IMG/VR virus record: IMGVR_UViG_3300028840_008184
Span: 52,049-116,048 of that record
Reading direction: 5' to 3' (one strand)
DNA from: a virus
DNA length: 64,000 nt
Shown here: one piece after another, positions 4,631-52,387 of the stretch
Layout of the letters: the number at the start of each line of letters is the position of its first letter
Numbering within the stretch: position 1 is the stretch's first letter
The notes under the pieces: generated by a model
The model's database searches: none
What the model was told of the DNA's origin: nothing
What the model saw: only the letters and a program-made list of their open reading frames with translations
Position numbers and translations under genes: made by a program

Positions 4631-6799
4631 TTATTCGTCATCCGCCTCAAGCTCTTCAAAGTATTCTTCAGCGGTCGGCAGAAACTCTGATTTTGAGAAA
4701 CCCTTGCTGTGATATAGATGGGTTGGCTTCTTGGTGCCAAACTCACTTTCAGCAATGTCGGCAAGCTCCATCTTAAGTTCGTTCAGTTTTTCTCTGAGGA
4801 TGCTCTTCTCATTTTCAGGCGTATCTTGTCTTCTAAGCCTGTGCTTGATGTCCCTCATATCGTCCAGTATTTCATCGATTCTTTCAGCACCAGGCTTTTC
4901 CTCTTCTTCCTCAAAGGACAGTTCTTCTCCTGGTTCCAACTGCTCCTCTTCCGCAAGCTCTCTGAAACTAAGAGGAACCCCCTCAGGTTCGTCCACGAGC
5001 TGCATCCCTTCCTCATCGGGCTCCTCTTCCTTAGCCTCTTCTCTTTCTTCAAGCTCTTCTACCATTCTTCTAAGCATGCCCACATTGCCAGAGCCTGCTT
5101 CCACATCATATATAAGACCAGACAAATCAACAGCTTCCTCGCTGCCTGGGTCTAAGTAATGTTCAAGAGCGTAATAGGCTTTCTCCAAAAGCTCTTCGTC
5201 TTTGTCTTCAACTTTCTGCTCACACTGGCCACACATGGATCTTTTAGAAAGACAAAGATCATCGGCGGCTTTGACAGGGATTCCAACACAATCGCATTCG
5301 CCTGGGGAACCACCACATATATTACATTTGGGGCACATACATCCCTCTGGTGATTTTCCACACTTGGGGCAATTTTTACACTTACACAATTTGCCAGGGT
5401 CGCCACATTTGGGGCAGATGCACTCACACAATTCTTTGGGACTACCACACTGCAAACAAGTTTTTATGTCTTCAGCCATTTTGGAAAGCTCAAGATCTAA
5501 GAAAGCAAGGCTCCATTGATCGGCGGCAAGGAGTCCAGGCTCCATACACTCGCTCTCGGTTTCTTCTATACCAAGCTCGGATTCTCCGGTTTCCACGCTA
5601 GATGGTTCTTTCGAATACTCTGGATCCCAAGGAATATATCTACCATCATCTTCCATCTCTTTTTTCCAAACCTTAAATGCTCGCTCAGGTGCATCTTTAA
5701 TGGCGTTGGCCATTCTCCATCGCAGCTTTTCCATTTTTTCTGGAGTGTTTACATCATACTTAACTTCACTCCAGGACTGATAAGCAATAAATATTCTCTT
5801 CTGGTCGTGGGTGAGATCCAACTCTTCCAGTATTTCTTCTGCGGTGGGCTCCTTTTCCTTTTCACCAAAAGGCCAAACCGCATGCTTTTTGAGCCTAATC
5901 ATATGATTGGCCATGGCCCATTGATCGGAAGCTTCGGCTTCGTCTTCCTCGTCATATTCGTCCCACCACGCATGGGGCTGCTCAAGCATCGGCAAGCTGC
6001 CATATTCAAGCGTCCCCAATCTTTTGCCAACCGCAGCAAGCTCAGAAACATCAACAATAAATACACCCTGCTCATCATTGGAGACCCCAATCATTCTGGG
6101 ATTCACATCTTTGCCTTCTGCATCTTTCACCATGCACTCAACCGAATCCCACCTCTCGCCTTCCAATGGTTCCTCTTTGACTGAAACATCACCCATGCCC
6201 TCACCATAAGGAATAGAGCTAAGTTTGTATCCATTAGGATAAGAAGTTAAATAGCTGAATCCATGAGTGGTTGGCCTATATTCTACGGAGCCACCACTCT
6301 GCTCTAAAATAGACTTTATCTCCTCGGCTGTAAAATCATCCCAGGCGACAATCTCTTTTAAAGCGGCTTGCTTATCAGAAGGAAGACTAAAATAAAAACT
6401 CCTAATAAACTTCTGGTCGCTATTAAGTCTCTCATAAATGGTATCCCTAAGCATCCAAGCTTCTTTTGTATTAGTGGCTCCATACTCTTTACAGGCCACG
6501 CGCTTGATAGGAATATTTTGATAAGCGACAGTGATGTTCTCTTCTTTCTTATCGAGCATAACTTTCCAGTTGCTCGTCACCACATTTTCCTCATCGCCTA
6601 TATCAAAAGTGCGAACAAGGAACTCGCCATCGTCATTAGACTGAATCTGCCAGAGTTCCTCGGGGCCACTGTCTTTAAATCGCACCATATCAAAAGCAAC
6701 TCTAATGATACGGTGCTCGTTCCCCTTTAGTGGGATGCGGCTTGTGTCCGGATCCACGACATTGCTAAGGGACTTATAATCTAGTTCAAACTTTTCCAT
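4631..6799 (-). CDS. Large acidic unknown protein with tandem CPxCG cysteine repeats
   Basis: A 722-residue protein of unknown family. The first half is mixed alpha/beta. Around 5270-5465 it encodes a dense run of short cysteine repeats of the form CPKCGxxxxxCxC, about five units. These probably bind several zinc ions, like a string of small zinc ribbons. The C-terminal third is very acidic and helical, rich in Glu. The ATG at 6799 is preceded by AGGAG, 11 bases away. The gene has its own promoter-like motif at 6856-6864 and stands alone between that motif and the gap at 4532. A virion or nucleic-acid-associated scaffold is possible; nothing in the sequence names a reaction. Confidence 0.8.
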   Translation of the reverse strand: MEKFELDYKSLSNVVDPDTSRIPLKGNEHRIIRVAFDMVRFKDSGPEELWQIQSNDDGEFLVRTFDIGDEENVVTSNWKVMLDKKEENITVAYQNIPIKRVACKEYGATNTKEAWMLRDTIYERLNSDQKFIRSFYFSLPSDKQAALKEIVAWDDFTAEEIKSILEQSGGSVEYRPTTHGFSYLTSYPNGYKLSSIPYGEGMGDVSVKEEPLEGERWDSVECMVKDAEGKDVNPRMIGVSNDEQGVFIVDVSELAAVGKRLGTLEYGSLPMLEQPHAWWDEYDEEDEAEASDQWAMANHMIRLKKHAVWPFGEKEKEPTAEEILEELDLTHDQKRIFIAYQSWSEVKYDVNTPEKMEKLRWRMANAIKDAPERAFKVWKKEMEDDGRYIPWDPEYSKEPSSVETGESELGIEETESECMEPGLLAADQWSLAFLDLELSKMAEDIKTCLQCGSPKELCECICPKCGDPGKLCKCKNCPKCGKSPEGCMCPKCNICGGSPGECDCVGIPVKAADDLCLSKRSMCGQCEQKVEDKDEELLEKAYYALEHYLDPGSEEAVDLSGLIYDVEAGSGNVGMLRRMVEELEEREEAKEEEPDEEGMQLVDEPEGVPLSFRELAEEEQLEPGEELSFEEEEEKPGAERIDEILDDMRDIKHRLRRQDTPENEKSILREKLNELKMELADIAESEFGTKKPTHLYHSKGFSKSEFLPTAEEYFEELEADDE

Positions 6800-15191: not shown

Positions 15192-15225
15192 TTTCGTTCT
15201 ACCTCTCTACCATAATTTAATGCCT

Positions 15226-15234
15226 TATTGATAG
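15226..15234 (-). promoter_or_regulatory. Promoter-like motif CTATCAATA
   Basis: The minus strand reads GACTATCTATCAATAAGG, 35 bp upstream of the ATG at 15191 and just after the polymerase gene's stop. It is one of six intergenic copies of the motif. Confidence 0.55.
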
Positions 15235-15250
15235 ATAGTCAAGTCTTTTT

Positions 15251-19355: not shown

Positions 19356-20654
19356 TTATCCCAGCGGATTCTCGGGAATCTCGCAGTTGTCGCCCGCTTC
19401 TTCTACGGGTTCTTCCTCAGTCTCGATCTGAGCCTGATTCAAAATTAGATCAAAAACTTTCCTATGCTTAATGGCGGCTATGACACCATCCATCAAACCT
19501 TCTTTTTGAATGTGGTCTTGGAGAGCCAACCTGCCCATATTCAGCCTCTCAGCTTCAGATTTTATAACCAAATCAAGCTCTTCTTGGGTGACCTTCATAT
19601 TTTCAGCTTTGTAAATGGCTTCTAGAATAAACGACCTTCTAATGTTCCTCTCAGCCATATCCCTGATGCGCTTTTTGGTTTCCTCATCAGGCTGGGATGC
19701 TTGAAGCTGGCCATATGTATGTTTCTCTTCATCTTCAACCCACTGCTCGGGAACTTCAAATTCGTGTGTTTCTACAAGCTTGTCTACAACCTGCTCTTCA
19801 AGAACTTGCCTTACTTGGTTCTCAGCTCTCTGCTTCGCATCCTTCTTGAACAATTCCATAAGCTCTTCATGGGAGGGGGCTTGCATCTTTTCAACAAGTT
19901 CCTCCTCATTGGGCTCTCTTCTTTCTGTGGCGACAATAAGCTCAATTCTCACATCAGCTTCCTTGCCAGCATGCTCATGACCTTCAGGCATGGTGATTTT
20001 CTCAGTCTTCATCTTGCCAACCTTCATGCCAACCAGATTCTCGCCAAACGGAGGTTCCTGCCCCTCGGCTATCAAGAAGTTGTTGCCCTCGCCTTTGGTA
20101 ATCTCCTTTCCATCAATATGGACCCAGAAATTCACTGTAGCCACAGAATTGAGCACAACCTCCTCAATCTTGGTCTCAACCATGTGTTGCGACCTTGCCT
20201 CTTCTATAATGTGTTCGAGGATGTGTTCTTCATCCATTTTGGGTTGTGTAAGTTGCATGCCCACATAGCCACTTGGGACAATCTCGGGCTTGATTTCTGC
20301 ATATATTTCACAGCAAAAAGTCCCGTCCATTTCAAAGTCCGCCTTTTCAATTTTGGGCTCGCCCAAGGGCTCTATCTTTTGTTCAAAACAAGCATAGAAG
20401 AAAGCCTCTTGAGATAGAATTGAAGACGCGGCAGCCTTCACATCATTGGGATGGTAAAGATCTACAAGGTGATCCGGAGCCTTCCCCTTCCTAAAGCCCT
20501 TGATTTGAACTTGCTTTCCGATTATATTACAAGCTCTTTTCATGGCCGCCTTAACAATTTCAATATCGGAGACTATTGTAAGCTTGCGCTTCAACCCTCC
20601 GAGATTCTCCATGGTTACTACGTGGTGCAGTTTATCTTGTTCTTCTTCTGGCAT
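19356..20654 (-). CDS. tig: Trigger factor (ribosome-associated chaperone, PPIase)
   Basis: A 432-residue homologue of bacterial trigger factor, which binds ribosomal protein uL23 and shelters nascent chains. The N-terminal domain carries the ribosome-docking signature GFRKGKAP at 53-60. A FKBP-like peptidyl-prolyl isomerase domain spans about 165-240, and a helical C-terminal chaperone domain fills about 250-405. Length matches host trigger factors (about 430). AAGGAG lies seven bases before the ATG, inside the upstream gene's end. A phage copy is unusual. It could compete for host ribosomes or aid folding of large virion proteins. Confidence 0.93.
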   Translation of the reverse strand: MPEEEQDKLHHVVTMENLGGLKRKLTIVSDIEIVKAAMKRACNIIGKQVQIKGFRKGKAPDHLVDLYHPNDVKAAASSILSQEAFFYACFEQKIEPLGEPKIEKADFEMDGTFCCEIYAEIKPEIVPSGYVGMQLTQPKMDEEHILEHIIEEARSQHMVETKIEEVVLNSVATVNFWVHIDGKEITKGEGNNFLIAEGQEPPFGENLVGMKVGKMKTEKITMPEGHEHAGKEADVRIELIVATERREPNEEELVEKMQAPSHEELMELFKKDAKQRAENQVRQVLEEQVVDKLVETHEFEVPEQWVEDEEKHTYGQLQASQPDEETKKRIRDMAERNIRRSFILEAIYKAENMKVTQEELDLVIKSEAERLNMGRLALQDHIQKEGLMDGVIAAIKHRKVFDLILNQAQIETEEEPVEEAGDNCEIPENPLG

Positions 20655-40791: not shown

Positions 40792-43700
40792 TTAACTTAC
40801 TATAGCCCTATCAGTAACGCGGCGCCAATTAGTCCCATCAGAAAATGCCGGAACTGCGCCACCAGATTCGTCTGGCACAAAAACCATTTGTCCGGCTGGA
40901 GACGCAGCTGGCAATTGTGCTACATTATAGCTAGGCAACAGATTATAAAGCGCCCCTCTTCTCGTAATTTGAACGGACTCATCATAATTATCTACGTGAT
41001 GAAGCTCAGAATACCCATCTACATCTTTGGAATACAACAAACTGGCGTTGTCCAAACCTACCGGATCGGAAATTTCATCCAGAGTAATATATCCATCTAT
41101 CTCAAGTGCTTCATCACCTGATGCATCAATAATAACAGAACCAGCATCAGCTGTGATCAACCTTCCCGCTCCAGGGCCACCCTCATCATATGCTTGGTCA
41201 AGCGTATTATGAGTTACAGCAAGCGAGCCGCCTTGAGTAATTTGCGTAATTTGACCCGAATGATCCATATATAATAGTTCTAGGCCATAACCAGGGACAT
41301 CATATACAAACAACTGCCCCTTGTTAAATTGCGCATCTGGATAACCATCCAAATAATGTAAACCAAGATAGCCATCAAGATTTAGTGCTTCGTAAGAATC
41401 ATATGCGTCAATGTGTACTGGCACCCCAGGCCAAACTATTATCGTGTTTCCGTTGGCATAGGCTTGCTGCAAGGTTACATTGTGCGGGTTAGAAGTATCA
41501 TTGGCATGATTGTTAAAAACCGATAGTGTTGCATAGCTATCAAGCAACGTCTTTTCAGCAAGAGGATCAATATCCGCCAAAGTGGCATAGCTATCAAGCA
41601 ACGTCTTTTCAGCAAGAGGATCAATATCCACCAAAGTGGCATAGCTATCAAGCAACGTCTTTTCAGCAAGAGGATCAATATCCACCAAAGTGGCATAGCT
41701 ATCAAGAAGCGCCTTTTCAGCAAGAGGATCAATATCCACCAAAGTGGCATAGCTATCAAGAAGCGTGCTATCAATAAGAGTTGCATCTGATACCAAAGCA
41801 TTAAGCTCAGCAAGAGTGCTACTGGTGTGTTCCGAACCACCCAAAGCGTGCTTGGCTAGAGTTCCACCCTGAGTAATTTGTGTAACCACCCCAGCATGAT
41901 CCATGTAGAGCAGTTCGAGCCCAGAACCAGGAACATCAAATACGAACAATTGACCTTTATCAAACTGAGCATCTGGGTAGCCGTCAAGATAATGTAAACC
42001 AAGGTAGCCATCAAGATTAAGGGCCTCATAAGAATCATAGGCATCAATGTGAACTGGCATTCCAGGTATTATTATAATGCTGTTTCCACTAATATAAGCT
42101 TGTTGAAGCGTTACATTGTGAGGGTTGGACATATCCGAAGTATGATTTGTTAAAGCCGTTGTTGTCGCATAACTATCAAGTAGCGTATCATCAATAAGGG
42201 TTGCGTCCGACACCAAAGCATTGAGTTCAGCAAGAGTGCTGCTGGTATGTTCAATTCCACCCAAAGCGTGTTTGACCAGAGTTCCATCCTGAGTCAATCT
42301 TACCGCAACACCATAATTATCCATATAGAATAGCTCAGTATAGCCGTCCATAAGCTTCCCGTATAGATAACCGTCATATCCATCTGGATCCACTGATGGA
42401 TCTGCCACCTGCTGTTCTATTCTTATATAATCAAGATCTCCAATTTGTATATCTGCTACGCCATTATTATCAGCTACTATAACCCTGCCTGTAAAGTTAA
42501 AGGCGGCTGGAATATCAACAATGGTTGTTCCCTCATCTTGAATTGGAACCAAACCACCACGGAACTGTAGAACTTGTAGTGTTCCATAGGCATCAACGGT
42601 TAAAGTGCCAGCGCCATCCTTCATTATTTGAAAGCTGGCTGTGTGATTTCCAGCCGTAAGAGGTGGTGTTACATAGCTCTTACTAATGTCTTTAGCTTGG
42701 CTCAAACCTTCTCTTACACCGTCTTGATATCTATATCCATCAACAGCAAAAGAAGTAAAAGCATTAACAACAGAGGTTGTACTAATACTTCCACTATAGA
42801 CAAGCAGAACTTCTTCATTTTCTACAGTATCAAAGCTCACATTGAGTTCGGTAACAGTTTCCCAAGTATCTACGGACACATAGTTTTTACTAACTGTGAG
42901 CATAGTTTGGTCAGACAAAGCGCCGCCTGCTCCAGAACCTGCAAGATTTATAGCCACAAGGTTTACATAATCATCTGTGTTGATTTGAGCACCTGAGCCG
43001 CCGCCGTCATTCTGGTATTGTACAGTAATCTTGTGATTTCCGAAGCCCATTTCAACCATATGAGTAGTAAAAGAAGCGGAATAGTGCTCACCAGAAGTAA
43101 CACTAATAATATTCCAAGCATCATTATCAGTTGGTTCTATAATTTGTTCTGTAAATCCATTGTAGTCGCCTTTATCTACAATAACACGGAAATTGGTGCG
43201 TTGAGAAACTCCAGAAGCCTGATACACCTGGACATTGAACGTAAGAATGTAGCTGCCCGCCACAACAGCATCAAAATATCCGTCGGCTCCAGTTATATCT
43301 ACGAAGGATGTAGATGTTAGACCAACGGCAACAGAAGGTACGAATTCTATTACTGCGTCTGCGAATCCAGAGTTGGTAACAGCAGTGGTATTTAGTCTGC
43401 CACCAAGCGTTACCTGTGTCTCATTCCCGCCACTATCTTTTGTAAATAGCTCGGTTATACCGTTGCTGAGTTTGGCGTAGAGTGAAACTCTTCCAACCTG
43501 ATCTGTAAATTCTGTTCCCTCAAGAAGACTTACGCCTCTAAGAGAATTGTAAGTGGCCAAATATCCGTCTTGTGTAATTTGAGTGATCTGGCCACTGTCA
43601 TCCATATAAAATAGTTCAGAGGTTCCGTATGCGTCATCATTTTTGGAATATAGGAAACCCTTGTTGGCTACATTTGTAGGATCAGTAATCTCATTGAGCA

Positions 43701-46164
43701 GCATATAGCCGTCAAGTTCCAGCGCATCATTTCCAGAAGCATCCATAACCACAGCGCCTGCGTCTGTTGTTATTACTCTGCCAGCTCCTGCGCCACCTTG
43801 ATCATATGCCTGGTTCAAAGTGTTAGCGCCAAGAGTTGATCCATCCTGGGTAATCTGCACTTCGTTGCCAGCAGCATCCTGGTAGAAAAGCTCTGTGTCG
43901 CCGCCATCATCTTTTGCATAGATGTGGCCTTCATTTGGTAATCCTGTGGGAGCAGCTATTTCAGCAAGACTCAAATATCCATCAATGCCAATAGCTTCGT
44001 CGCCACCGGCATTTACAATAACTCCACCAGAGTCTGCTGTAATAATCCTGCCTGCTCCAGCACCACCTTCATCATAGGCTTGATCCAGGGTATTACCATC
44101 ACCTCCAACAGGAGAGCCCTTGTTGGTAATTTGTGTAGCAAGACCGTAATCGTCCATGTAGAACAATTCGGTGTATCCGTCAATTTCTCTGGAATATACC
44201 AATCCAGCATCTGCAAGATTGGATGGGTTAGAAATCTCATCTAATGTTAAATAACCATCTATTTCAATAGCCTCATTCCCCGAGGCATTAATAATCACAG
44301 CACCAGCATCGGCAGTAATAACTCTGCCCATATTGTATGCCTGATCCAACGAGTTAATGGCAATTTCCGGATCGGTTTTATACCTTGCGGCATACCAAGT
44401 TCCGGCTACGCCAGAAGCAACGAACTCAATGCGGTTTAGTGTAGCATTATATGTCCATTCAGTCTTGCTGGCTCCCAGAACAGCCACCCAACGCATTCTT
44501 GCGCCATTCTGGAAAACATCCAAAGCATAGCCAGAAGGCATATTATTTTGAACCATAGGAGTTCCAGTAAGCGGCAGAGAGGTCTCAATTCCGGTAGTAG
44601 TTGCCGGATTAAGCTCGTCAAACTGCTCTAATACGGTGTAGCCGTCTATGCCAAGATAGCCATCTGAGGTTATTTGGATTACATTGCCATCGCCATCCTT
44701 GTAGAAAAGCTCGGTGTTGCTGGCAATTTCCTTGGTGTACAGAAAGCCCTTATAAGGGGCAGTAGTAGGATCGGAAGGCTGCATGAATAGTCCGACACCT
44801 CTAAGGCTCTCAAAAGTGTCTAAATATCCATCGTTTGTAATACGAGTTATAGCACCAGCATCATCTATGTAATGAAGCTCTACTGCTCCGTCCACGGTTT
44901 TTGCGTATAGGTAGCCATCGTTAGCTGTTGAAGCAGTTGGATCAGCACCTTGCGTTGGTAGAGCCAAAAACTCTTCGGTTTCTACAACAAGCTTTTCGTC
45001 GCCGCCGGGATTTAACTCATCAAATACAATGTTCAAACCAGGGGACATCTTATCTTCAAGAAATCCTGGTGTTGTATCTGTAGCGCTTTTCTTAAGCTCA
45101 TAGGCGTCCGCGAGTGCGGACATATTTAAGAAGCCGTTTTTGGTAATCTGAACGACATTGCCAGAATCATCTTTATAGAAAAGCTCTGTGTCACCGGAGT
45201 CATCCTTGGTATATACGCTTCCAACCCCAACTTCTACGACAGGATCAGAGGCTATTTCACTAAGGGCGAGATAACCATCAAGCAGGCGAACATTGCCTGA
45301 CGTAAGCAGTACGTCTCCAGTATCTGCCAACAGAGCGTAATTGAAGGGCAACGTGCCGCTTGTAGCTTTGTATGCCACCATCAGGCCACTTACTGGAACG
45401 CCAGGATCCAGTGTCTCGGCACGGAAAAGATCAGTCTCAGAATCTGACGCATTGCCAGGCAAAATATCCACATAAGAATAGACGCCCAAAGCTGTGAACC
45501 CACCTGCGGGTAGGGCGCTTATAAGCTGCGAAGCTACCGAAATCGGCTCGGTATATCCATCCTGGGCAAGTGCAAATCTTACTCCAATTTGGTTATTTAC
45601 GTCTACGGCAGTTATGTCGGTCTCAAGAATTGGTTCTTGGTTTAGATCTCCAGTAGCAGCTAGGCTAAGTCCACTATCACCCCCGGATACATTCAGAAGA
45701 ATAGGTCCAGAGTCAACGGCAATAATTCTTCCAGAACCTGCGCCCCCTTCGTCATACGCCTGATCAAGAGTATTTCCTATGGCAGAGTTGGTATCAATGG
45801 CAACAAAGGCATCATACATGGCCTTGGACCAACCAATTGTTGATCCGTATTCGTCTTCCTCTCCTGTAGCTGGTATACGGATATTGAGATTGGCAGTTCT
45901 GACCGCAGCTATGGCGATGTCCGTCACTGAGCCGTTTACTGTGAGGCGGATTCGATAGGAACCTACACTATCTACTGTTTTTAGAGTAGGGGTTTTGGTT
46001 GTTGGGTTCTGGATCCAAGCGGCTGAGCCTGGTGGAGCAGACAAAAGCGCCCAGAGCCTCGTAGAAGCGCCTACTCCTACATCATTCAGATTTACGTCAA
46101 CGCCTAGCGGCAAATTAGTAACGCTGCCGACTTGACCGTTAATTTCTATGATTGCTGTGGCCAT
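40792..46164 (-). CDS. Giant repetitive tail fibre protein
   Basis: A 1790-residue protein, first gene of the tail cluster. It has an N-terminal Ig/PKD-like domain (about 1-100). Then follow many copies of a module pair: NTLDQAYDEGGAGAGRIITADAG with EALEIDGYITLDEISDP, and a strand motif TELFYMDDYGxxTQIT. Jelly-roll-like domains and a run of 18-residue repeats near the C-terminus (encoded at 41531-41765) follow. The end (VYSDGTNWRR-like, FSDGTNWRRVTDRAIVS) is typical of phage tail fibre tips. AGGAGG, ten bases before the ATG, lies inside a hairpin that may control translation. Confidence 0.87.
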   Translation of the reverse strand: MATAIIEINGQVGSVTNLPLGVDVNLNDVGVGASTRLWALLSAPPGSAAWIQNPTTKTPTLKTVDSVGSYRIRLTVNGSVTDIAIAAVRTANLNIRIPATGEEDEYGSTIGWSKAMYDAFVAIDTNSAIGNTLDQAYDEGGAGSGRIIAVDSGPILLNVSGGDSGLSLAATGDLNQEPILETDITAVDVNNQIGVRFALAQDGYTEPISVASQLISALPAGGFTALGVYSYVDILPGNASDSETDLFRAETLDPGVPVSGLMVAYKATSGTLPFNYALLADTGDVLLTSGNVRLLDGYLALSEIASDPVVEVGVGSVYTKDDSGDTELFYKDDSGNVVQITKNGFLNMSALADAYELKKSATDTTPGFLEDKMSPGLNIVFDELNPGGDEKLVVETEEFLALPTQGADPTASTANDGYLYAKTVDGAVELHYIDDAGAITRITNDGYLDTFESLRGVGLFMQPSDPTTAPYKGFLYTKEIASNTELFYKDGDGNVIQITSDGYLGIDGYTVLEQFDELNPATTTGIETSLPLTGTPMVQNNMPSGYALDVFQNGARMRWVAVLGASKTEWTYNATLNRIEFVASGVAGTWYAARYKTDPEIAINSLDQAYNMGRVITADAGAVIINASGNEAIEIDGYLTLDEISNPSNLADAGLVYSREIDGYTELFYMDDYGLATQITNKGSPVGGDGNTLDQAYDEGGAGAGRIITADSGGVIVNAGGDEAIGIDGYLSLAEIAAPTGLPNEGHIYAKDDGGDTELFYQDAAGNEVQITQDGSTLGANTLNQAYDQGGAGAGRVITTDAGAVVMDASGNDALELDGYMLLNEITDPTNVANKGFLYSKNDDAYGTSELFYMDDSGQITQITQDGYLATYNSLRGVSLLEGTEFTDQVGRVSLYAKLSNGITELFTKDSGGNETQVTLGGRLNTTAVTNSGFADAVIEFVPSVAVGLTSTSFVDITGADGYFDAVVAGSYILTFNVQVYQASGVSQRTNFRVIVDKGDYNGFTEQIIEPTDNDAWNIISVTSGEHYSASFTTHMVEMGFGNHKITVQYQNDGGGSGAQINTDDYVNLVAINLAGSGAGGALSDQTMLTVSKNYVSVDTWETVTELNVSFDTVENEEVLLVYSGSISTTSVVNAFTSFAVDGYRYQDGVREGLSQAKDISKSYVTPPLTAGNHTASFQIMKDGAGTLTVDAYGTLQVLQFRGGLVPIQDEGTTIVDIPAAFNFTGRVIVADNNGVADIQIGDLDYIRIEQQVADPSVDPDGYDGYLYGKLMDGYTELFYMDNYGVAVRLTQDGTLVKHALGGIEHTSSTLAELNALVSDATLIDDTLLDSYATTTALTNHTSDMSNPHNVTLQQAYISGNSIIIIPGMPVHIDAYDSYEALNLDGYLGLHYLDGYPDAQFDKGQLFVFDVPGSGLELLYMDHAGVVTQITQGGTLAKHALGGSEHTSSTLAELNALVSDATLIDSTLLDSYATLVDIDPLAEKALLDSYATLVDIDPLAEKTLLDSYATLVDIDPLAEKTLLDSYATLADIDPLAEKTLLDSYATLSVFNNHANDTSNPHNVTLQQAYANGNTIIVWPGVPVHIDAYDSYEALNLDGYLGLHYLDGYPDAQFNKGQLFVYDVPGYGLELLYMDHSGQITQITQGGSLAVTHNTLDQAYDEGGPGAGRLITADAGSVIIDASGDEALEIDGYITLDEISDPVGLDNASLLYSKDVDGYSELHHVDNYDESVQITRRGALYNLLPSYNVAQLPAASPAGQMVFVPDESGGAVPAFSDGTNWRRVTDRAIVS
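41531..41765 (-). repeat. Tandem 54-bp in-frame repeat
   Basis: Four full 54-bp units begin at 41531, 41585, 41639 and 41693, with a partial fifth from 41747. Each encodes 18 residues of the form LLDSYATLVDIDPLAEKT. Units differ by one to three bases, so they arose recently by slippage or unequal recombination. They would extend a helical or coiled spacer in the fibre and may vary in copy number. Confidence 0.95.
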
Positions 46165-46173
46165 TTAAGAATA

Positions 46174-46249
46174 ATCCTCCTGCCGTATCTCTCTGGATAT
46201 GGATTTCCATTAATATTTTAGAATATTAATAGATACGGCAGGATAGGAT
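46174..46249 (-). promoter_or_regulatory. Hairpin hiding the tail-gene ribosome site, with an internal promoter-like motif
   Basis: Perfect 12-bp arms (46179-46190 and 46231-46242) extend by one pair, and after a 2-base bulge by four more (46174-46177 with 46246-46249). The right arm begins at the gyrB stop. The GGAGG ribosome site (46180-46176) would be fully paired. Inside lies a second 9-bp inverted repeat (46209-46217 with 46222-46230). Transcripts from gyrB could fold and block translation, while transcripts starting inside would lack the upstream arm and stay open. Confidence 0.65.
46224..46232 (-). promoter_or_regulatory. Promoter-like motif CTATTAATA
   Basis: The minus strand reads GTATCTATTAATATTC, 60 bp upstream of the giant tail gene's ATG. 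It is a one-base variant of the recurring motif and spans the junction of the nested inverted repeats. Confidence 0.5.
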
Positions 46250-48162
46250 TATATGTCTAATCTAGCTTTTAAAGCCCCTTCTTCAATGAGCATTCTCCTT
46301 GGTTCAACTGCTTTGCCCATAAGGATGCCAAAAATCCTATCAGCTTCTAAATAATCAGTAATTTCCATTTTCACAAGTTCCCTAGTTTTTGGATCCATGG
46401 TTGTATTCCACAACTGAGTAGGGCTCATTTCTCCAAGCCCCTTAAATCTTTGGATATTCCCCTTAAACTTCTTTTCTTTGATAAAATCTTTGAGAGACTT
46501 ATCATCTTTTAAATAATAGCTTTTTCCGCGAATATCTATTCTGTAAAGTGGAGGTTGAGCCACATATATGTTGCCGTTCATAATCAACTGAGGCATCTGT
46601 CTGAAGAAAAAGGTCAACAATAATGCGCGGATGTGAGAGCCATCAACATCTGAGTCAGTCATTATGATAATTTTGTTGTAGCGAATCTTAGCTAAATCGA
46701 TGCTTCTACCAATTCCAACACCTATGGCTGTGATAAGATTACCGATTTCCTTGTTGCTCATCATTTTACTGAACTCGTTCTTCTCGATGTTGAGAACTTT
46801 ACCACGAAGAGGCAGAATAGCTTGAAACATTCTGTCCCTGCCCTGCTTGGCTGAACCACCAGCTGAATCTCCCTCGACAATAAATATTTCACAAATTTCT
46901 GGATCTTTGGAACTGCAATCCGCAAGTTTCCCAGGAAGCAGCATTCCGCCATCCTTGAGCACGGATTTTCTAACTGCCTCCTTGGCTTTCTTGGCTGCCT
47001 CTCTGGCCTTGAAGGCATTTACACATCGAGTCACTATTTTCTTGGAAAGTGGTGGATTTTTCTCCAAATAGTCCATAAGTTTCTCAGCAACAGTGCTCTC
47101 TACAGCCGTCCTGGCGTCCTCAGACACCAATTTTTCCTTGGTCTGCGAGCTAAACTTGGGGTTTGGGTGCCTGATGCTAAGAACTGCTATTAAGCCTTCC
47201 CTAATGTCGTCTCCAGACAGCGAGATTTTAAGGGATTTTGGGAGATCCGAGCTTGCTATGAAGCCATTTACGGTTCGAGTTATAGCAGTTTTGAAGCCAA
47301 CCACATGAGATCCGCCGTCTGGGTTGGGGATATTATTCGTATAACACTGCAATATTTCATCATCTTCCGCGCTGTCGAGCCACTGGAAAGCAACATCTAC
47401 TACAATTTTGGATCCATTGCCAACTTCTTGCGTAAATTCAAAGGGTTTGGTTAATAGTTTGCCTGGAGCAAGAAACTCCACGAAGTCAGAGATGCCCTCA
47501 TCGCTTCCAAACACCTCTTTATCTTTAGCTTTTTCATCAATGAACTCAATGGTTAGGCCCTTACAGAGAAAAGAAAGCTCTCTGAGCTTTTGTTTTACTC
47601 TTTCGCCGTCGAACTTAATTACATGATGGAATATGTTGTTGTTGGGGACAAATCTAATTGTGGTTCCTCTGCCCTTTCCAGTTTTTTCATCCACGCCCGC
47701 CACTTTTTTACCTTTTTCGTAGGCAACGGTGTATTCTTTGCCGTCTCTACGCACAGTTGCCCTGAGACGAGTCGAAAGAGCATTAACAACGGACACACCA
47801 ACTCCATGTAATCCACCAGAGACAGCGTAAGCCTTTTTGTCAAACTTTCCTCCAGCATGTAGCTTTGTGAGAACGGCCTCCAGCGCCGTCATCTTTTCCT
47901 CTTTCATGTATTTCACAGGGATGCCACGACCATTGTCGGCTACGGAGGCGGATCCGTCCTTGTGGAGGGAAACCACAATCTTGTCGCAGTGACCAACCAT
48001 GAACTCATCTACGCTATTGTCCAACACTTCCATGATCATGTGGTGGTACCCAGTGCCGTCTTCTGTGTTGCCGATATACATGCCTGGATTCTGCACGACT
48101 CCTTCAAGACCCTTGAGAACCTTGATGTCATCGTAGCTGTCTTTCTTTTTTCTTGGCGTCAT
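46249..48162 (-). CDS. gyrB: DNA gyrase/topoisomerase IV subunit B
   Basis: A 637-residue type IIA topoisomerase ATPase subunit, the same length as bacterial GyrB of the short type. The GHKL ATPase has EVLDNSVDEF, DNGRGIPV and GLHGVGVSVVNALS. The TOPRIM domain has EGDSAGGSAKQGRDR, PLRGKVLNIEK and the DSDVDGSHI acidic set. IQRFKGLGEM marks the C-terminal part. It would relieve supercoils with GyrA from the host or from elsewhere in the phage genome, as no gyrA lies in this window. A YacG-like gene sits two genes upstream. Confidence 0.96.
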   Translation of the reverse strand: MTPRKKKDSYDDIKVLKGLEGVVQNPGMYIGNTEDGTGYHHMIMEVLDNSVDEFMVGHCDKIVVSLHKDGSASVADNGRGIPVKYMKEEKMTALEAVLTKLHAGGKFDKKAYAVSGGLHGVGVSVVNALSTRLRATVRRDGKEYTVAYEKGKKVAGVDEKTGKGRGTTIRFVPNNNIFHHVIKFDGERVKQKLRELSFLCKGLTIEFIDEKAKDKEVFGSDEGISDFVEFLAPGKLLTKPFEFTQEVGNGSKIVVDVAFQWLDSAEDDEILQCYTNNIPNPDGGSHVVGFKTAITRTVNGFIASSDLPKSLKISLSGDDIREGLIAVLSIRHPNPKFSSQTKEKLVSEDARTAVESTVAEKLMDYLEKNPPLSKKIVTRCVNAFKAREAAKKAKEAVRKSVLKDGGMLLPGKLADCSSKDPEICEIFIVEGDSAGGSAKQGRDRMFQAILPLRGKVLNIEKNEFSKMMSNKEIGNLITAIGVGIGRSIDLAKIRYNKIIIMTDSDVDGSHIRALLLTFFFRQMPQLIMNGNIYVAQPPLYRIDIRGKSYYLKDDKSLKDFIKEKKFKGNIQRFKGLGEMSPTQLWNTTMDPKTRELVKMEITDYLEADRIFGILMGKAVEPRRMLIEEGALKARLDI

Positions 48163-52029: not shown

Positions 52030-52257
52030 CTATTGAGGTCCCGGCACGCCAAAAGCAGGCGTCTCCCGACCTCTATTGGGCACATTATCTTTGCCCCTTG
52101 GGCTGCTTGAAAAGGTGAAGTCGAAATTGAGCTTTCCGGATTCCAGAAGTTCCAGAAACTCATCCCAGCTCTCTTCTACCTTTTCGGCCATCTCCAGTTT
52201 CCCTTCTCTTACCAACTGGACGGTTAAGCCGTTTAAAAATTGAGCATACTTGTTCAT
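52030..52257 (-). CDS. Small unknown protein
   Basis: A 75-residue protein with a helical first half containing a REGKLEMAEKVEES motif, similar to the helical hairpins of the proteins near 1-2849. It ends in a Pro/Gly-rich tail. The ATG at 52257 follows GGAGG; an ATG at 52272 lies before that site. It is the first gene after the terminator and promoter-like motif at 52286-52381. Confidence 0.75.
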   Translation of the reverse strand: MNKYAQFLNGLTVQLVREGKLEMAEKVEESWDEFLELLESGKLNFDFTFSSSPRGKDNVPNRGRETPAFGVPGPQ

Positions 52258-52285
52258 TACAATCCTCCACATACCTATGAAGAAT

Positions 52286-52294
52286 TATTGATAG
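52286..52294 (-). promoter_or_regulatory. Promoter-like motif CTATCAATA
   Basis: The minus strand reads TAACCTATCAATAATTC, placed between a strong terminator and the ATG at 52257. Terminator-motif-gene order is what a promoter would show. A short ACCTAT/ATAGGT dyad overlaps it. Confidence 0.6.
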
Positions 52295-52324
52295 GTTATA
52301 ACTATTTGATTACTTTAAGAAAAC

Positions 52325-52381
52325 GCCTCCCAGCCCACTGGAGAAGGAGGTAAGGCTCTATGCCTTGGTGGGCTGGGAGGC
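52325..52381 (-). terminator. Strong terminator after the Cys-rich gene
   Basis: A perfect 14-bp stem, GCCTCCCAGCCCAC with GTGGGCTGGGAGGC, has a loop containing a smaller AAGGC/GCCTT hairpin and is followed by GTTTTCTT. It begins 7 bp after the stop at 52388. Confidence 0.88.
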
Positions 52382-52387
52382 TTTGGA

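Follow-up and report, generated by a model that had tools for sequence, protein, structure and literature searches.

In phage T4, the long upstream RNAs of gene e (lysozyme) and of soc bury the Shine-Dalgarno sequence (SD), while the late RNA is made without the upstream strand; the late promoters of these genes are situated in the DNA from which the structure's upstream strand is transcribed (PMC3014915). I-TevI, I-TevII, I-TevIII, segB and Aeh1 mobE are late genes placed behind early or middle genes, with a hairpin over the SD, and in the leaders of this group the late promoter is sited so that late RNA cannot form the hairpin (PMC2988022). In e, soc, 49, I-TevI, segB and mobE, the late promoters are placed within, or close to, the upstream half of the inhibitory structure (PMC3014915, PMC2988022). 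The literature that we found reports such a switch, with a late promoter embedded in a hairpin, from T4-group phages only.

The window (the whole 64,000-nucleotide stretch of viral DNA that was analysed) contains a hairpin behind gyrB that had been noticed in a sequence-only reading, and the observation is confirmed. We propose, with a probability of about 0.8, that this hairpin is a late-only translation lock of the T4 gene e/soc/I-TevI type. The locus differs from T4 e and soc in its gene, a giant tail gene behind gyrB; in its late motif, TAYYAATA preceded by ATC where T4 has TATAAATA; in its stem, which is longer and starts in the upstream stop codon; and in its phage, whose major head protein is closest to that of Bacillus phage G (52% over 83%). 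I-TevI, I-TevII, I-TevIII, segB and Aeh1 mobE are homing endonuclease genes of T4-group phages, whereas here the gene is probably a structural one; an HNH-type ORF does adjoin the hairpin in one relative, L008, but it is not the controlled gene.

The border between gyrB and the tail gene

The genes lie on the minus strand, where gyrB (48162-46249) is followed by a 1790-aa ORF (46164-40792). The gyrB identity given by the sequence-only reading was borne out, the product being a 637-aa topoisomerase II large subunit (PHROG 543, E 9.4e-158). Read 5' to 3', the border is TAATCCTATCCTGCCGT-ATCTATTAATA-TTCTAAAATATTAATGGAAATCCATATCCAGAG-AGATACGGCAGGAGGATTA-TTCTTAA-ATG. The upstream arm (46231-46251) is made up of TAATCC (46251-46246), a 2-nt bulge TA and TCCTGCCGTATCT (46243-46231), and its first part is the gyrB stop codon TAA (46251-46249). 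The downstream arm (46172-46190), made up of AGATACGGCAGGA and GGATTA, contains the SD of the ORF, GGAGG (46176-46180), 11 nt before the ATG at 46164. TCCTGCCGTATCT and AGATACGGCAGGA form a perfect 13-bp inverted repeat (46178-46190/46231-46243), which TAATCC/GGATTA lengthens by 6 bp past the bulge (46246-46251/46172-46177). The perfect arm described earlier as lying right after the gyrB stop is thus present, with a length of 13 rather than 12 bp and an extension that begins inside the stop codon.

Within the hairpin, the promoter-like motif ATCTATTAATA (46224-46234) overlaps the end of the upstream arm (CTATTAATA being 46224-46232 on the minus strand), and a start ~7-8 nt behind the motif, as expected from its position, would fall at 46215-46218. 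The loop also holds a nested AT-rich inverted repeat (46206-46233), which had been described as 9 bp; in the window it is 12 nt long with 92% identity (46206-46217/46222-46233), but it is not conserved, being absent in the relative L007. Therefore it probably has no functional part and is incidental or linked to the promoter.

No intrinsic terminator (GC stem plus T run) has been reported on the minus strand at 46172-46251. A terminator reading of the hairpin was rejected, as no terminator-like site is seen between gyrB and the tail gene. Whether early or late, RNA that begins anywhere upstream and passes through gyrB would carry both arms. gyrB is presumably transcribed early, with early RNA reaching the border. 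The paired arms would bury the tail gene SD, and tail protein would not be made from this read-through RNA. The putative late promoter ATCTATTAATA would sit between the arms, and late RNA started behind it would lack the upstream arm and be translated from an open SD.

The 1790-aa protein (40792-46164) is likeliest a late tail or adhesin-like protein. The earlier assignment as a tail gene is weak on the gene's own match (PHROG tail fibre, E 5.5e-4) and draws more from its N-terminus, distant homologues of which, in other phage contigs, are encoded just downstream of baseplate wedge genes. This N-terminus is predicted to form a beta-sandwich (pLDDT 86) and has weak Ig/PKD-like matches (best E 2.8e-3). 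Its first 600 aa had no match among 50,697 phage records, and the gene had none in bacterial genomes.

Distant relatives of the tail gene were found in L005, L006 and L007, and a fourth relative in L008; all four have gyrB upstream, with 62-67% gyrB identity to the window for L005-L007 where compared. The order of an arm, TATCTAYTAATA, an arm with a GGAGG SD and the tail gene is kept in these four diverged phages. A single-sequence search of viral contigs for gyrB relatives found none. An alignment-based gyrB scan gave 80 loci, and among the 50 junctions examined the arrangement was seen only in the known relatives. A scan for TATCTAYTAATA...GGAGG...ATG (114 stretches, 80 loci read) turned up no additional locus in which an arm holds the SD. 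In L158 and L104 a stem does enclose the motif, but the SD falls outside it; the L158 stem is a strong one around TATTAATA, before a 141-aa ORF of another viral contig. The distant homologues of the tail protein N-terminus in L213-L218 and L012 have no motif just upstream.

Because the gyrB stop codon forms the beginning of the upstream arm, part of this arm would be masked by a ribosome completing gyrB, which counts against a lock. Ribosomes ending gyrB might instead open the stem and make tail gene translation proportional to that of gyrB, with the promoter adding transcripts and no temporal control. This coupling would also suit L005-L007, where the upstream arm begins 8 to 13 nt behind the gyrB stop. 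In L008, however, the hairpin is kept although an HNH-type ORF stands between it and gyrB; in addition, a terminating ribosome would be expected to leave ~8 bp and the inner stem paired in the window. We consider such coupling unlikely.

Two features of gyrB in these relatives may be mentioned here. In L008 (~5150-5930), the HNH-type ORF is followed by an apparent leftover gyrB 3' end (SEAANIDV-stop). In L005 (L005:4000-5916) and L008, gyrB is interrupted in frame, at one shared point (VEG-SAGG / HNSAKQ), by an insert whose ends look intein-like; the window, L006 and L007 lack it.

Predicted SD burial in read-through and late RNA

RNA of the gene strand from 46270 to 46160 was predicted to fold to -39.3 kcal/mol (z = -6.5), and none of 200 shuffles folded as well. 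That the partner arm holds the ribosome site of the giant gene, as claimed before, was supported: the whole GGAGG is inside the downstream arm, with each of its bases predicted to be paired with the upstream arm at a probability of at least 0.94. In upstream-initiated RNA the SD is therefore predicted to lie in a helix. The cost of opening it, 13.2 kcal/mol, is the highest among 61 genes of the window (mean 2.45, sd 2.17, next 8.6), and when only the bases from the gyrB stop to the motif were shuffled, 0/400 sequences reached this cost. A different value for the same SD, 11.4 kcal/mol, is used below; the two come from calculations with different flanks.

Read-through RNA was then compared with late RNA, modelled as starting 7 nt behind the motif, which removes the upstream arm. 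Predicted SD opening in the window cost 11.4 kcal/mol with the upstream arm and 2.7 without it, compared to 13.3 and 2.6 kcal/mol for T4 gene e, a positive control with an established mechanism. The locus thus has the same computed contrast between long and late RNA as T4 gene e. Similar values were obtained for L007 (11.8 vs 4.8 kcal/mol) and L008 (11.1 vs 2.4 kcal/mol), and smaller differences for L006 (5.9 vs 3.5 kcal/mol) and L005 (6.7 vs 6.0 kcal/mol). The late RNA of L005 is itself predicted to be partly closed, with a cost of 6.0 or 3.2 kcal/mol according to where exactly it begins; this, together with the weak stems of L005 and L006, counts against the lock. The sequence-only reading had read-through RNA locking the SD and a shorter RNA freeing it, in agreement with sequestration being predicted only with the upstream arm. 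By this prediction, the hairpin would lower tail gene translation.

Among ~24 other late-motif leaders in these phages, the change was only -1.5 to 2.5 kcal/mol, with one exception of 5.0. Most late-motif leaders being without a lock, it is a special feature of the gyrB/tail gene border. The exception is the leader at 52293 of the window, which sits behind a strong hairpin. There (52249-52384), a strong 17-nt stem comes first, then CTATCAATA at 52293, then GGAGG ahead of the ATG at 52249. Its read-through RNA is predicted to be 5 kcal/mol more closed than its late RNA, and apart from the border no other late leader differs to any great extent.

Arm changes in diverged phages

The arms are TCCTGCCG/CGGCAGGA in the window, CCTCCACCG/CGGTGGAGG in L007 and TCCTGACCA/TTGGCAGGA in L008. 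Arm pairs were matched up by their distance from the SD, as a MAFFT alignment of the leaders misplaced the downstream arm. Beyond the SD itself, at pairs -6, -5, -4, -2, -1, +6 and +7, both sides change and pairing is kept. In both directions, the cognate arm was the best of five partners for the window, L007 and L008, and not for L005 and L006. Similarly, shuffling the upstream arm gave 0/400 matches in each of the window, L007 and L008, while in L005 and L006 the lock was no better than shuffled (p ~0.27 each). The combined shuffle test over the five phages gave p ~1e-5, carried by three of them. The arm sequences thus change with pairing kept; the signal is strong in the window, L007 and L008 and weak in the other two phages.

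A chance inverted repeat beside an ordinary late promoter would fit the weak stems of the two poor cases, but leaves unexplained the fold z-score, the shuffle results in the other three phages, compensatory changes at several positions and the most occluded SD among the 61 genes; we regard it as very improbable. It is harder still to see the inverted repeat as a protein-binding operator over the promoter. The arms and nested repeat do flank and overlap the motif, yet the arm sequences differ between phages with pairing kept, and L007 lacks the nested repeat.

The late-only lock, with the logic of T4 gene e and I-TevI that the sequence-only reading had put forward, is thus supported in silico by the computed arms and SD burial, the motif set, conservation in five phages and compensatory arm changes. 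A homologue of the T4 e/soc/I-TevI leaders was rejected, given the other gene, the other late motif, the phage G-like head protein and the lack of any Rfam match within the window. We lean towards the view that the lock had an origin separate from that of T4, its lineage using another late promoter, and that it has persisted at the gyrB/tail gene border despite strong divergence, even beside an HNH-type gene. That arms co-vary in diverged phages outside the T4 lineage suggests convergent evolution. The predicted switch is of a known type and occurs here in five diverged phages that do not belong to the T4 group; if it did arise separately, it would be a general phage solution where a late gene follows an early gene with no terminator between them. 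Further cases could be sought by a simple rule, a late promoter between two arms of which one holds the SD.

Two other genes were noted. The major head protein gene in L221-L224 (G002:187659-192111) is split into pieces over ~4.4 kb, which suggests introns or other inserts, and the window encodes a phage trigger factor at 19356-20654 (Pfam Trigger_N and Trigger_C).

A putative late promoter between the arms

The promoter-like motif that had been placed inside the hairpin belongs to a genome-wide set. Across the 116-kb record containing the window, ATCTAYYAATA occurs at eight sites, of which seven are on the gene strand, and the sites are mostly intergenic. Most motif sites of the four related phages likewise fall in narrow gaps between genes, usually 38-91 nt ahead of a start codon. 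A TAYYAATA-type site, TACTAATA, is found in the short gap before the major head protein gene (L002:10369; gene call PHROG 2522, E 2.7e-76). A control pattern, the motif read backwards, is likewise uneven across strands in these AT-rich genomes; therefore strand bias alone is weak, and intergenic placement is the stronger point. Since intergenic sites precede the major head protein gene and other genes, we read the motif as a putative late promoter of this lineage, its lateness being judged from the genes it accompanies, and as a candidate late promoter for these uncultured phages. At the border, RNA from such a promoter would lack the upstream arm if it is active and starts where the motif position indicates. 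On the gene strand, neither gyrB nor the 4 kb preceding it holds a late motif, the nearest being the one at 52293.

The motif also bears on whether the hairpin is instead an RNase III-like processing site, where cutting would free the SD and the motif would be incidental. Long intergenic stems are common processing signals in phages such as T7, and this one, of ~19 bp, lies between two genes of the same direction. However, the motif is kept in 5/5 phages as part of the genome-wide promoter-like set, and the stems of relatives are interrupted or short, with 10 bp in L007 and 7 bp in L005. Processing is thus an unlikely alternative to the late-only lock.

A late motif also occurs at 15214-15242 (minus strand), inside the spacer of a sigma-70-like promoter (TTGACT-17-TAAATT). 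The pair is similar in relatives L227, L235, L237 and L242, and the gene behind it, of ~200 aa, looks orthologous among them, which suggests overlapping early and late promoters for this gene.

The region 2 sigma protein of the four relatives, a candidate late sigma of 179-188 aa, was not found in the 116-kb record of the window, which counts against the lock, although the record may be an incomplete fragment. All five phages encode another small protein, which has a helix-turn-helix resembling sigma region 4 (in one of them below the curated cut-off).
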